Of a DNA stretch of 40,118 nt, positions 3,075-9,868 are shown one piece after another. Origin of the DNA: Peterkaempfera griseoplana (lineage in GTDB: Bacteria > Actinomycetota > Actinomycetes > Streptomycetales > Streptomycetaceae); NCBI RefSeq assembly GCF_001418575.1, contig NZ_LIQR01000180.1, positions 1 to 40,118 on the forward strand. Reading direction: 5' to 3'. The position numbers were made by a program, and so were the translations under genes. The notes beneath the pieces are model-generated. The model did no database searches. It had not been told where the DNA came from and saw nothing but the letters and a program-made list of their open reading frames with translations. How positions within the stretch are numbered: the stretch's first letter is position 1; the number at the start of each line of letters is the position of its first letter.

Positions 3075-4118
<1,044 letters not shown>

Positions 4119-4209: not shown

Positions 4210-4734
4210 TCAGGCGGAGCGGTCGAGGGCGCGCAGCGAACGGTCGGTGATGGAGCGTGCGCCCCGGCCGATGGCGACCATGCCGGACTGCACCAGCTCC
4301 TTGATGCCGTACGGCTCCAGCATCCGCAGCATCGCCTCCAGCTTGTCGGAGCTGCCGGTGGCCTCCACCGTGACGGCGTCCGGCGAGACGTCCACCGTCT
4401 TGGCGCGGAAGAGCTGGACGATCTCGACGATCTGGGACCGGGTCTCGGCGTCGGCGCGCACCTTCACCAGGACCAGCTCGCGCCGGACCGCCGCGACGGG
4501 GTCCAGCTCGACGATCTTTATCACGTTGACCAGCTTGTTGAGCTGCTTGGTGACCTGCTCCAGGGGGAGGTCCTCCACCTGGACCACGATGGTCATCCGG
4601 GAGACGTCGGGGTGCTCGGTCGGCCCGACGGCGAGCGAGTCGATGTTGAAGCCCCGGCGGGAGAAGAGCGCGGCGATGCGGGCGAGCACGCCGGGCTTGT
4701 TCTCGACCAGGACGGAGAGCGTGTGCTTGGACAT
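4210..4734 (-). CDS. ilvN: Acetolactate synthase small (regulatory) subunit
   Basis: It is the ACT-domain regulatory partner of IlvB and confers valine feedback inhibition and full activity. The 174-residue protein opens with the typical N-terminal ACT sequence (SVLVENKPGVLARIAALFSR at about 6-25, then GFNIDSLAVG) and ends with a second ACT-like domain (about 85-160). I chose the ATG at 4732-4734 because GAGGAAG lies about nine bases upstream and the known family N-terminus starts here; the reading frame stays open much further upstream inside ilvB but that is spurious. Thirty-two bases separate it from the ilvB stop, consistent with one transcript. Confidence 0.96.
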   Translation of the reverse strand: MSKHTLSVLVENKPGVLARIAALFSRRGFNIDSLAVGPTEHPDVSRMTIVVQVEDLPLEQVTKQLNKLVNVIKIVELDPVAAVRRELVLVKVRADAETRSQIVEIVQLFRAKTVDVSPDAVTVEATGSSDKLEAMLRMLEPYGIKELVQSGMVAIGRGARSITDRSLRALDRSA

Positions 4735-4766
4735 GTGACTGGCTTCCTCGGTTCCTGGTGGGGGTG

Positions 4767-6617
4767 TCAGTCCAGCTCGTCGCCGAAGTCGGGGCGGACG
4801 TCGCGGGCGGCCATGATCTCGTCGTTGCTGGTGCCGGCGGCGACCATCGGCCACACCATGGCGTCCTGGTGGACGATGAAGTCGATGACGACCGGTGCGT
4901 CGTTGATCGACATCGCCTCCTTGATCACGGCGTCCAGCTGGTCCGGGCTCTCGCAGCGCAGTCCGACACAGCCCATCGCCTCGGCCAGTTTGACGAAGTC
5001 GGGCACCCGGGTGCCCGCGGGCGGCGGGGCGATGCCGTCGTGGCCGGGGCCGCTGTGCAGCACCGTGTTGGAGTAGCGCTGGTTGTAGAAGAGGGTCTGC
5101 CACTGGCGGACCATGCCCAGCGAACCGTTGTTGATCACCGCGACCTTGATCGGGATGTTGTTGAGCGCACAGGTGACCAGCTCCTGGTTGGTCATCTGGA
5201 AGCAGCCGTCGCCGTCGATCGCCCACACCGGGGTGTCGGGGCAGCCGGCCTTGGCGCCCATCGCGGCGGGGACCGCATAGCCCATGGTCCCGGCGCCGCC
5301 GGAGTTCAGCCAGGTCGCGGGCTTCTCGAAGCCGATGAACTGGGAGGCCCACATCTGGTGCTGGCCGACACCCGCCGCGTAGATGGCGTCCGGGCCGACC
5401 AGCCGGCCGATGCGCTCGATCACCTGCTGCGGGGAGAGCTCGCCCTCGGGGGCGGGGGCGTAGCCCAGCGGGTAGGTGGTCTTCCAGGCGTTCAGCCGCT
5501 CCCACCAGGCGCTGTAGTCGCCCTTGTGGCCGGCCTCGTGCTCGGCCTGGACCGCGACGATCAGGTCGGCCAGCACCTCGCGGGCGTCGCCCACGATCGG
5601 CACGTCGGCGGCGCGGTTCTTTCCGATCTCGGCCGGGTCGATGTCGGCGTGCACGATCTTGGCGTTGGGGGCGAAGCTGTCCAGCTTGCCGGTGACCCGG
5701 TCGTCGAAGCGGGCGCCCAGGGCGAAGATCACATCCGCCTTCTGCAGCGCGGTGACGGCGGGCACCGTGCCGTGCATCCCGGGCATGCCCAGGTGCTGCG
5801 GGTGGCTGTCGGGGAACGAGCCCAGCGCCATCAGGGTGGTGGTGACGGGCGCCCCGGTCAGCTCCGCCAGGATGCGCAGCTCGGCGGTGGCACGGGCCTT
5901 GAGCACGCCGCCGCCGACGTAGAGCACGGGACGCTTGGCGTTCACCATCAGCCGGGCGGCCTCACGGATCTGCTTGGCGTGCGGCTTGGTGACGGGCCGG
6001 TAGCCGGGCAGCGCGGTCTCCGGCGGCCAGCGGAAGACCGTCTTGGCCTGCAGGGCGTCCTTGGCGATGTCCACCAGGACCGGGCCGGGCCGGCCGGTCG
6101 AGGCGATGTGGAACGCCTCGGCGATCACCCGGGGGATCTCCTCGGGGTCGGTGACCAGGTAGTTGTGCTTGGTGATCGGCATGGTGATGCCGCAGATGTC
6201 CGCCTCCTGGAAGGCGTCGGTGCCGATCGAGGCACTGGCGACCTGCCCGGTGATGGCGACCATGGGGACGGAGTCCATGTAGGCGTCGGCGATGGGGGTG
6301 ACCAGGTTGGTGGCACCCGGGCCGGAGGTCGCCATGCAGACCCCGACCCTGCCGGTGGCCTGGGCGTAGCCCTCCGCGGCGTGCCCCGCGCCCTGCTCGT
6401 GGCGGACCAGCACATGGCGGACCTTGGTGGAGTCCATCAGCGGGTCGTACGCGGGAAGGATGGCGCCGCCCGGGATGCCGAAGACGGTGTCGGCGCCTAC
6501 GGCCTCGAGCGAGCGGATGAGCGACTGGGCGCCGGTCATCGTCTCTGCGGCATGGGCGCCGGTAGCGGAGTGGGCTGCCGGGTTGTCCCCGCGATGCGGG
6601 GCGGCCTGCTCAGTCAT
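4767..6617 (-). CDS. ilvB: Acetolactate synthase large (catalytic) subunit
   Basis: This thiamine-diphosphate enzyme condenses pyruvate with pyruvate or 2-oxobutyrate, the committed step to branched-chain amino acids. The protein has 616 residues from the ATG at 6615-6617. FGIPGG is at 46-51, the catalytic Glu74 lies in RHEQGAGH, and the ThDP/Mg motif GDG...NN is at about 469-498. The frame remains open upstream through the leader region, but the family begins close to this ATG and a GGAGA lies 12 bases before it. A leader peptide and terminator precede it, so transcription is very probably attenuated by supply of Ile, Leu and Val. It forms the first gene of ilvBNC. Confidence 0.97.
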
Positions 6618-6777
6618 CTGCCTGTCTCTTCTCCGGGTTGTCGCTGCGGGAGGGCCCCCGAGGGGGAACGCCCTGCCGCTGCGGTCGCTGGGCGTCGCGC
6701 GACTGCTTCTTCCATGGTGCGCGGCGGCTGCGGCGGTGGGGCGGGTTCCAGCGGGTTTGCGGCACATTTCGTGCAAC

Positions 6778-6810
6778 AAAAAACCCCTCGTGCCCAGGGC
6801 ATGCGAGGGG
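6778..6810 (-). terminator. ilvBNC attenuator terminator
   Basis: On the minus strand CCCCTCG...CGAGGGG (6810-6784) pairs with an inner TGCCC/GGGCA stem and is followed by six U residues (6783-6778). A U-tract is rare at Streptomyces terminators, which makes this a clear factor-independent terminator. It lies between the leader peptide and ilvB. Confidence 0.9.
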
Positions 6811-6811
6811 T

Positions 6812-6861
6812 AGCGCGTCGGCTTCTGGATCCGGACTGCGGTCCGGGTCAGCCGACGCGCT
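6812..6861 (-). promoter_or_regulatory. ilv leader pause or antiterminator stem
   Basis: A perfect 12-bp inverted repeat, AGCGCGTCGGCT (6812-6823) against 6850-6861, spans the last codons of the leader peptide. An inner CCGGAC/GTCCGG stem lies in its loop. A ribosome at the leader stop would cover the promoter-proximal arm. The distal arm ends one base before the terminator rather than overlapping it, so how the switch works is not obvious. Confidence 0.75.
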
Positions 6862-6889
6862 CGCCAAGTACGAGGATTCGGGTGCGCAT
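6848..6889 (-). CDS. ilvBNC leader peptide
   Basis: A 13-codon frame reads [13 protein letters not shown] and stops with TGA. Four consecutive codons (Ile, Leu, Val, Leu) and a later Val are for the end products of the pathway. A GAGGAGGAAGG ribosome site lies upstream. It is followed directly by a hairpin and a U-tailed terminator, the standard layout of ribosome-mediated attenuation known for actinobacterial ilvB genes. The ATG is 34 bases after the end of the upstream cdgE-like gene. A perfect TTGACA (6926-6921) overlaps that gene's stop codon, but no -10 box is positioned to go with it. Confidence 0.88.
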
Positions 6890-6922
6890 GGCCTTGACCT
6901 TCCTCCTCGGCCAAGGGCGGTG

Positions 6923-9868
6923 TCAAGCGGGTGGGATGGCGGTCTCACCATGCGGACCTCCCGTGGATAGGCGTTCTGGCAGGTCGGAGGCCTGATGGTG
7001 ATGTGGGACACGCGCCCTGCGCAGGTCCCCGCGGCCATCCGAAAGAGTGGCCGCAGGGACTCGAGGCGGCCTGGATCCGGCCGGCTCCGGCACCGGCAGA
7101 CTGCGCCGCAGCAGCACCCGGCGCAGCCGCTGGTCGTCCAGCGGTCCGGCGAAGAGCAGCCCCTGACCGTGCCGGCAGCCCAGCTCGCGCAGCACCTCCG
7201 CCTGCCCCGGCGAGTCCACCCCCTCGGCCGCCGTCAGCAGACCCAGGTCCCGACCCAGCCGCAGCATGTGGCCCACCACCGCCCGGGTCACCGGGGACTC
7301 CGCAACCCCCTGCACCAGGGCCCGGTCGAGCGCCAGGATGTCGGCGGGCAGCCGCCTGAGCCAGGTCAGCGAACCGGTGCCGGTACCGAGGCCGTGCAGC
7401 GCCAGCCGGACACCGAGCCGGCGCAGAGCGGCCATCCGGCGGGCGAGTTCCTCCAGGTTCCCGCAGGCCTCACCCCCGGCCGCGCCCGAGGGGTCGGCCC
7501 CCACCGCGAGGATCAGCCCCGCCGCCGGCAGACCGCTCTCCTCCAGCGCCCGTTCGACGGCCTCCACCATGCCGGGCGCCGCCACTGCGTGCGCGGACAG
7601 CCGCAGCGTCACCGGCACCCCGGGGCCGCCCCGCTCCGTCTCGTGCCGCCGGCGAGCGGCGGCTGCGGCGACGCCCTGCTGGACCAGCCACCGGGTGAGG
7701 CGCAGAAACCGGTCCCCCGTCTCCCCCGCCGGCAGGAACTCCGCCGGAGTCAGCAGCAGGCCCTGCGCGGAGAGCCAGCGGGGCTGCGCCTCCACGGCGG
7801 CGACCTCTCCGCTGGACAGGTCGACGACCGGCTGGTGGAGCAGGGTGAGCCGGCCGTCGCGGACGGCGCCGCGCAGTCGCTGGTCAAGTTCGGTGCGGCG
7901 CCTGCGGTCGGCGCGCAGCTTAGGGGAGTAGACCGCCACCCGGTCCTTGCCCAGCGACTTGGCGCGGTACATCGCCAGATCCGCGTTGCGCATCAGCGAG
8001 GCCGGGTCGGAACCCGGCTCGGCGAAGGCGATCCCGATGCTGGCCGCCACCGTGAGTTCGCGGTCGGCGAGCCGGTAGGGCCTGGACAGCACACGGCGCA
8101 GCCGCTCGGCGATGTCGCGCACCCGGGCCTCGTCCAGCCGCCCGGCGATCAGGGCGGCGAACTCGTCGCCACCCAGCCTGGCGACCACGTCACCGGCCCG
8201 GACGGCCTCCTGCAGCCGGCGGGCCACCCGCACCAGCAGTTCGTCGCCCGCCTGGTGGCCTGCGGTGTCGTTGACCGCCTTGAAGCCGTCGAGGTCGAGG
8301 AAGAGCACGGCGACCGTACGGCCCTCGCCCCGAACGCCGGAGAGGGCGCCGCGGATCCGGTCGGTGAACAGCGCCCGGTTGGGCAGGTCGGTGAGCGCGT
8401 CGTGGAAGGCGTTGTGCTGGAGCTGGGCCTGCAGCCGCACCCGCTCGGTGACGTCCCGGCTGTTGAGGATCAGCCCGTCGCGGTGCCGGTTGACGGTGGA
8501 CTCCACATGGAGCCACTCACCCGCCCCGGAGCGGATCCGGCACTCCACCCGGGTGGTGGGTTCCTTCTCCGGGACGCCGGCGAGGAAGCGGCGGACCGCC
8601 CAGAGCACATGGCCGAAGTCGTCGGGGTGGACCAGGTCCAGCAGCCGCCGGCCCACCAGCCCCGCCGGATCGCGCCCGTAGACGCCGATCGCCGCCGGGC
8701 TGACGTACGCGAGCACTCCGTCGGCGCGGATGATCATGATGACATCGCTGGAGCCCTGCACCAGGGAGCGGAAGTGCGCCTCCTGGGCGGCGAGTTCCTG
8801 TGCCAGCGAGATGTTTTCCAGCAGCATGATGCCCTGGCGGACGATCAGCGCCAGACCCACGGTGCAGCCGGTGACCAGCACCACGCGGTCCATGGAACGG
8901 ACGCCCAGCGCGTTGTAGAGCAGTGCGGCGGTGCAGACCGCCGCGGCGAGATAGGGCGTCAGGGCGCTGAACCAGGAGGCCGCCGGGCGTCCGCGGCCCG
9001 GCGACGGGCCGGGTGGCGGCTCCTGGTCGGCCGGCTGCGGAAGGCGGCGCCCGGAGGCCCAGGGGGCCCGGGCGAACAGCAGGCTGCCGGCGAACCAGCC
9101 GGCGTCCAGGATCTCCCCCGAGTGATAGCTGCCATGGACCGTCGGAAACGTCCACAGGGCGTCGCTGACCACGGTGACGGCCAGTCCCGCCAGCGCCGTG
9201 TTCAGCGCGGAGCGGTCGACCCCGCGGCGGAAGCGGAGCCCCAGCACCACGCTGACCAGCACGATGTCCAGCAGCGGATAGGCGAGGGAGAGGGACAGCT
9301 GCAGCGGGTCCCCGTCGTCCCCGTGGGCGATCCGGGCCAGCGCCAGGCTCCAGCTGAGGATGAACAGCGAACCGGCGATCAGCCAGCCGTCCAGCAGCAG
9401 GCAGAGCCAGCCGGCCACGGTGCGGGGACGCTGCGCCAGCACCAGCAGACCCACGATCGCGGGCGGGGCGAAGAACAGAAAGGCGCAGTCGGCGGGGGAC
9501 GGGGAGGGCAGCGGCCGGTGCAGCACCACCTCGTACCAGCCCCAGGTGCCGTTGCCGAGCGCGGTCATCAGGGAGGACGCCCCGAAGAGCAGCCAGGCCG
9601 GCCGTCCCCGGCCGTGCATCCGCAGTCCGCGCACCGCGCAGGACAGCGCCGCCGCCAGCGCGGCCGCGGCCAGGCCGAAGTCGCCCATGACGGACGCCAG
9701 GGCCGGCGAGCCCCATCCGGTGACGGCGCCCAGCGCATAGCCGCCGCAGACCACCGCCAGCAGCACGGGGACCAGTCGCCGCCGGGCCGCTCCGCTCTCC
9801 TCCGCGCCGGGGGCCGCCGGGGGGCCGCTGCTCGGCGCTCCGGGCAGCACGGTATCGGTGGCACTCAA
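6923..9868 (-). CDS. cdgE: Membrane PAS-GGDEF-EAL protein, cdgE-like, EAL degenerate
   Basis: This is a 981-residue predicted cyclic-di-GMP protein. About eight to ten hydrophobic segments fill residues 30-350. A PAS domain (about 364-475) is followed by GGDEF (485-650) and EAL (660-915) domains. GGDEF is intact at 566-570 and an inhibitory-site RAGD lies at 557-560, so it should be a feedback-controlled diguanylate cyclase. In the EAL domain only Glu693 of the signature remains (EAQPRW). The NVS, EITE and DDFG positions read LRLS, LAVG and HGLG, and the LKIDR Lys is Ala, so phosphodiesterase activity is unlikely. The start is TTG with GGGGGAG upstream. A BldD-like box lies 85 bases before it. 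Symbol given by domain order and position next to ilvB. Confidence 0.85.

Follow-up and report, generated by a model that had tools for sequence, protein, structure and literature searches.

The ilvBNC operon of Peterkaempfera griseoplana is preceded by a short leader that is very probably a ribosome-mediated attenuator, and in which a 12-bp stem ending a single base before the terminator is likely to be the ON element. The leader lies in a window of 40,118 nucleotides, i.e., the whole stretch of DNA that was analysed (contig NZ_LIQR01000180.1). The best explanation of the whole that we can offer, and to which we give an even chance, is that ilvBNC is governed by a ribosome-mediated attenuator that is switched on by the stem, likeliest because the stem bridges the distance between a stalled ribosome and the terminator; the bridging action, taken by itself, we hold with confidence that falls a little short of even. 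The element itself is already known, and its nearest description is the "fast" attenuator with adjacent hairpins of Corynebacterium glutamicum; the general layout, the spread to cimA, the two conserved spacings and the bridge model were not described together in the literature searched. The ilvB leader of Streptomyces has posed a puzzle ever since 1999, as it is attenuator-like and yet its mode of action was termed unclear and mutations of its codons are reportedly inert. The comparison shows what was missing, i.e., a strongly covarying stem, directly beside the terminator, which is kept across much of the class and before three genes. This conserved arrangement has no explanation in the textbook model, and it suggests a testable mechanism.

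Leader architecture and promoter

The leader occupies positions 6889-6778 of the minus strand and consists of a 13-codon reading frame, the 12-bp stem, one unpaired A, a terminator and six Us. The leader peptide ORF (6848..6889, minus strand; ATG CGC ACC CGA ATC CTC GTA CTT GGC GAG CGC GTC GGC TGA) starts with the ATG at 6889-6887 and stops with the TGA at 6850-6848, the control codons being ATC CTC GTA CTT, i.e., codons 5-8. The 5' arm of the stem (AGCGCGTCGGCT, 6850..6861, minus strand) reaches from the second base of codon 10 to the first base of the stop codon, and its distal 3' arm (AGCCGACGCGCT, 6812..6823, minus strand) shows compensatory changes versus the 5' arm both in the family and in the class; all 12 pairs are standard and a second hairpin is enclosed within the stem. 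A single base, A6811, then separates the stem from the terminator hairpin CCCCTCG...CGAGGGG (6784..6810, minus strand), made up of a 7-bp lower stem, a 2-nt bulge (CA) and a 4-bp upper stem, and followed by a U-tract (T6, 6778..6783, minus strand) that was read from the sequence. An earlier note on this DNA had described a 13-codon leader with four successive branched-chain codons, a perfect 12-bp stem over its last codons and a terminator with six Us, and it was right in coordinates and pairing. The bulge of the terminator's 5' arm, C(A/T) at 6802-6803 (minus strand), is unpaired yet near-invariant in the family, with one exception, and may belong to a site at which RNA polymerase pauses. Near-invariant in the family as well is a GTTG immediately past the U-tract (6774-6777, minus strand). 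Folding of the leader region gave z = -4.0 against 200 shuffles.

Upstream of the leader, a -35 box TTGACA (6921..6926, minus strand) and a -10-like element GAAGGT (6897..6902, minus strand) make up the leader promoter. The TTGAC begins exactly 37 nt before the ATG in 81/87 family members, and GANGGT recurs at the same place (-13 to -8) in 80/87 relatives. This fixed spacing predicts a leaderless transcript that starts at or next to the leader ATG, probably at its A, so that the purine-rich stretch 5' of the ATG would be promoter spacer and not a ribosome-binding site. Leaderless transcription has been reported for ilvL of S. lividans (PMC8079986). The upstream GGDEF/EAL-type ORF (6923-9868, minus strand) ends with its TGA (6925-6923, minus strand) inside the TTGACA box. 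Downstream, the identities of the genes were established via NCBIfam equivalogs: ilvB for the acetolactate synthase large subunit (4767..6617, minus strand; NF005860 and TIGR00118), whose ATG lies 160 nt past the U-tract, ilvN for the small subunit (4210..4740, minus strand, the coordinates being those of the stretch tested and the start approximate; NF008864) and ilvC for ketol-acid reductoisomerase (3075..4073, minus strand; NF004017).

Based on the codon usage of 23 high-GC3 ORFs of the window, several codons of such leaders are rare, e.g., GTA accounts for 1.9% of Val, CTT for 1.0% of Leu, ATT for 0.8% of Ile and CGA for 2.8% of Arg codons. Almost all family members retain GTA and CTT at the control positions, and most of them have ATT. 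Codon 5 of the window is ATC, unlike the rare ATT of most relatives, which counts against an attenuator or bridge explanation. Overall, rare codons at the control positions are consistent with a device that measures the speed of translation. The distance from the control codons to the stem is 4-5 nt in 85/86 family members and in 56/63 other members of the class.

Distribution before ilvB, cimA and leuS

By DNA search the leader region was recovered in all 298 of 298 Streptomycetaceae genomes, some distant genera being matched weakly. A covariance model trained on 51 sequences of the family found the full architecture in 119/119 genomes of the order and in 206/296 genomes (90/115 genera) of the class Actinomycetes. 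The window leader scores 123.5 bits (E 4.6e-29) against this model, being itself among the 51 training sequences. No Rfam family (riboswitch, T-box and ilvB motifs) reached its gathering score, the best being Atu_C8 with 24.8 bits vs 50. The covariance model now describes a widespread RNA element without a counterpart in Rfam. Mycobacterium leaders, identified by a pattern search, share the layout, and four of them match the model at 33-39 bits.

Nearly all of the 80 loci fetched from the covariance-model matches have ilvB downstream. A second set of leaders is found 5' of cimA (citramalate synthase; best family TIGR00977), with isoleucine leaders, given here up to their stop, that include MHSSSIIIRERVDV and MPSQVLIIVRRAG and carry Ile-Ile control codons; one further leader among the fetched loci, MRAVRLLLSEPR, precedes leuS and carries Leu-Leu-Leu. 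The source genome itself harbors both additional types, i.e., an isoleucine-type cimA leader on contig 546 (VSSLVVIIGSRRAGPQ), with a stem that directly adjoins the terminator, and a leuS leader on contig 645 (VRTVRLLLSRPR) with the same abutting layout. Leaders of cimA similar to that of contig 546 occur in several other families, and no description of an isoleucine-type cimA attenuator was found in the literature searched. The leader codons match the amino acids of the pathway, with ILVL before ilvB, Ile-rich leaders before cimA and Leu-rich ones before leuS, and this agreement between leader and downstream gene is strong evidence for codon sensing. The device before cimA and leuS, the rarity of the GTA and CTT control codons and the probable leaderless transcript all go beyond what the earlier note had described.

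Covariation and spacing

One base pair of the stem is represented in the family by 26 AU, 14 GC and 10 GU combinations, i.e., an A-U to G-C exchange, and three further stem pairs each show single double changes. Among 87 distinct class members, double (compensatory) changes are seen in 22 of the 23 pairs of stem and terminator, and the covariation score is 0.465 vs 0.155 for shuffled and at most 0.068 for slid alignments, a score that leans towards the structure to which the alignment was fitted. Stem and terminator thus covary independently, and they are both real helices, without overlap. The earlier note had proposed aligning homologous leaders as a check, and such an alignment indeed reveals a conserved peptide along with compensatory changes in the stem; its reading of the element as an attenuator is supported by this peptide, by the rare control codons and by the covariation of stem and terminator.

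The spacer between stem and terminator measures 0-2 nt in 86/87 family members and in 60/74 other members of the class, class counts that carry a few errors, as the automatic stem finder misplaced stem or terminator in a few members (e.g., L156, L203). The earlier note was correct in remarking that a single base separates the end of the stem from the terminator, with no overlap, and this applies class-wide and is not peculiar to the window. The span enclosed within the stem ranges from 3 to 48 nt while the spacer stays short, and most spacers of 3-4 nt belong to cimA leaders, whose terminator starts earlier, at GAC. The position of the stop codon varies as well (at the stem base, at the stem tip or just 5' of the distal arm), and in each of these arrangements a terminating ribosome would cover one arm of the stem. 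From stop codon to terminator the distance in the family is at least 17 nt, with a median of 40. In L132-L134, from one family of the class, the leader ends at codon 10 with TAG, so that the stop codon itself is the base of the stem.

Search for an overlapping antiterminator

No classical trp-type antiterminator helix overlapping the terminator was found conserved, either in the comparisons of family and class or in masked folding. Ribosome-masked folding, which the earlier note had also suggested as a check, gave P(terminator) = 0.996 in all states, and only the stem responded: its probability is 0.99 when the A site holds codon 5 or 6, then 0.75, 0.50 and, at the stop codon, 0.00. In the folding without a ribosome the stem has P 0.99, and the window offers no competing leader hairpin. 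The stem is, in these folding models, the sole structure predicted to report the position of the ribosome. That the terminator forms at equilibrium in every ribosome state counts against the attenuator explanation, as any ON state would then have to come from kinetic or steric effects.

Codons 9-11 could also pair with CGC(A/T)TGCC in the terminator arm, and the conserved bulge would then have been explained, but this pairing shows no compensatory change and fewer pairs than the stem. The leader's CTCGT can also be drawn paired with the 3' arm of the terminator; both sides are almost invariant, and hence uninformative.

Proposed mechanism and its alternatives

The sense of regulation that we propose is taken by analogy from two relatives. 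A C. glutamicum leader that has lost its start codon gives 80% less expression, and replacing three Val by Ala removes the response (PMC11857589); in M. tuberculosis, expression rises when IlvB1 is inhibited, and a change of LVVI to AAAA abolishes induction (PMC13236596). If starvation permits read-through, and starvation is also what permits the stem, then the stem would be the ON element. We postulate that a leaderless transcript would start at the leader start codon. With ample Ile, Leu and Val the ribosome would reach the stop codon and mask the 5' arm of the stem, leaving the terminator free to halt transcription; with a shortage of charged tRNA it would stall on codons 5-8, and the 12-bp stem would form. 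As there is no conserved overlap, the stem cannot act by taking terminator bases in most lineages. It may act instead as a bridge that folds away the RNA between stalled ribosome and terminator, in which case the terminator base would come within a few nucleotides of the leading edge of the 70S ribosome, the closing of the hairpin would be blocked and transcription would read through. Terminators of E. coli are repressed by a ribosome close by: termination is nearly abolished at short stop-codon distances and restored beyond about 27 nt, and the repression is lost without translation (PMC4824070). In the fed state a ribosome at the stop codon of the family's leaders would stand at least 17 nt (median 40) from the terminator. 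That the repression distances are E. coli values, from which we infer the action of the bridge by analogy, counts against it. We also put forward, tentatively and as the more doubtful generalization, that Actinomycetes share a modular attenuator, placed before ilvB, cimA and leuS, that is built from two conserved spacings, an RNA bridge and a steric block of the terminator. Should this hold, amino-acid attenuation would operate without a mutually exclusive antiterminator helix.

An unlikely alternative, albeit the best of those considered, is that the stem is itself the antiterminator, either by borrowing the first C's of the terminator arm, a boundary competition like that proposed for C. glutamicum, or because its helix, abutting the exit channel of RNA polymerase, hinders the closing of the terminator, with the ribosome unnecessary. 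In C. glutamicum the bases of terminator and antiterminator are reported as adjacent and sharing a GCC trinucleotide, and a comparable extension of the stem into the CCCC of the terminator is invariant in our family: G25, G26 and G28 of the window can pair with terminator-base C's, GG is present in every aligned family member, and the two G's in codon 9 are complementary to a pair of C's in the terminator (mean extension -3.8 kcal/mol), so that simple competition for bases could operate within the family, which counts against the bridge. Across the class, however, the extension is no better than chance (-2.65 vs -3.0 with shuffled upstream sequence, swapped sequence being likewise no weaker), conservation of codon 9 is limited to the family, and equilibrium folding never displaced the terminator. 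Moreover, a stem acting alone should let an untranslated leader read through, the opposite of what the C. glutamicum start-codon mutant shows, a result which argues that the ribosome is needed.

That the stem serves chiefly as a pause hairpin (like trp 1:2), at which RNA polymerase awaits the ribosome while the ON state arises otherwise, we consider improbable. A pyrimidine-G step is located 10-12 nt past the stem in 86/86 family members and in 56/72 others, a count confounded by the sequence conservation of the terminator. This distance is about the spacing of hairpin-stabilised pauses, and a pause would account for the conserved 2-nt bulge of the terminator. However, a pause hairpin gives no antitermination on its own, and a second alternative helix was not found in our comparisons.

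Still less probable, and in our view quite remote, is that the Streptomycetaceae leader no longer senses amino acids, the operon being under promoter control (e.g., by NdgR, which binds upstream of ilvB; PMC4340878) and the terminator serving as a fixed partial stop. Changing the candidate control codons of ilvB in S. coelicolor was reportedly without effect (Craster 1999, as cited in PMC1262725), which would agree with such a vestige and counts against the attenuator explanation, by which it is left unexplained. Nevertheless, the rare control codons, the peptide and the compensatory stem changes are kept family-wide, which is unexpected of a vestige. Finally, the alternative offered by the earlier note, an antiterminator formed by GCGAG (codons 9-10) and CTCGC in the terminator arm, is very improbable: the complementarity does exist in the window, with all five pairs, but as an alternative pairing it is not conserved in the 51 relatives, two of the five pairs each being absent from more than half of them (27-108 is present in 24/51 and 28-107 in 19/51) with zero compensatory change, and the stem, which draws on these bases too, is far stronger.

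Comparison with known attenuators

The preferred reading, i.e., a ribosome-mediated attenuator with an ON stem, can be set against several known systems. The closest is Streptomyces ilvL (S. lividans SLIV_10947 and the S. coelicolor ilvBNC leader; Seliverstov et al. 2005), which is this very element in a different genus: the window peptide has the same 13 residues as that of S. lividans bar one (E for K), it lies directly upstream of ilvBNC, and the gene, the U-tailed terminator and the promoter spacing that predicts a leaderless transcript are shared, with no difference in kind. The mode of regulation of this leader is termed unclear in the literature, and the covarying abutting stem is not described in the literature text searched.

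The Corynebacterium ilvBNC leader (ilvB-II motif, "fast" three-hairpin model) resembles the leader of the window in its adjacent antiterminator and terminator hairpins and in a branched-chain leader of about 15 codons; its transcript starts one nucleotide from the start codon, much as is predicted here. It differs in that its model needs the shared GCC trinucleotide, which is not conserved here (the pairing is possible but invariant in the family, and at chance level in the class), as well as an anti-antiterminator hairpin over the leader start, which is not a conserved feature here and is absent from the window. The uORF of Mycobacterium ilvB1 encodes a Leu-Val-Val-Ile leader with the same stem beside the terminator; its stop codon, however, lies past the 5' arm and just before the distal arm, so that a terminating ribosome would block the other arm. 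From the classical trp, his and ilv attenuators of enterobacteria the ilvBNC leader differs in having no alternative helix that overlaps the terminator. In the model proposed here it would come closer to attenuation of the pyrBI type, where a ribosome close by itself keeps the terminator hairpin from forming, with the difference that here the ribosome would be far away in sequence and brought near by the folded stem, and that the signal would be a shortage of amino acids.
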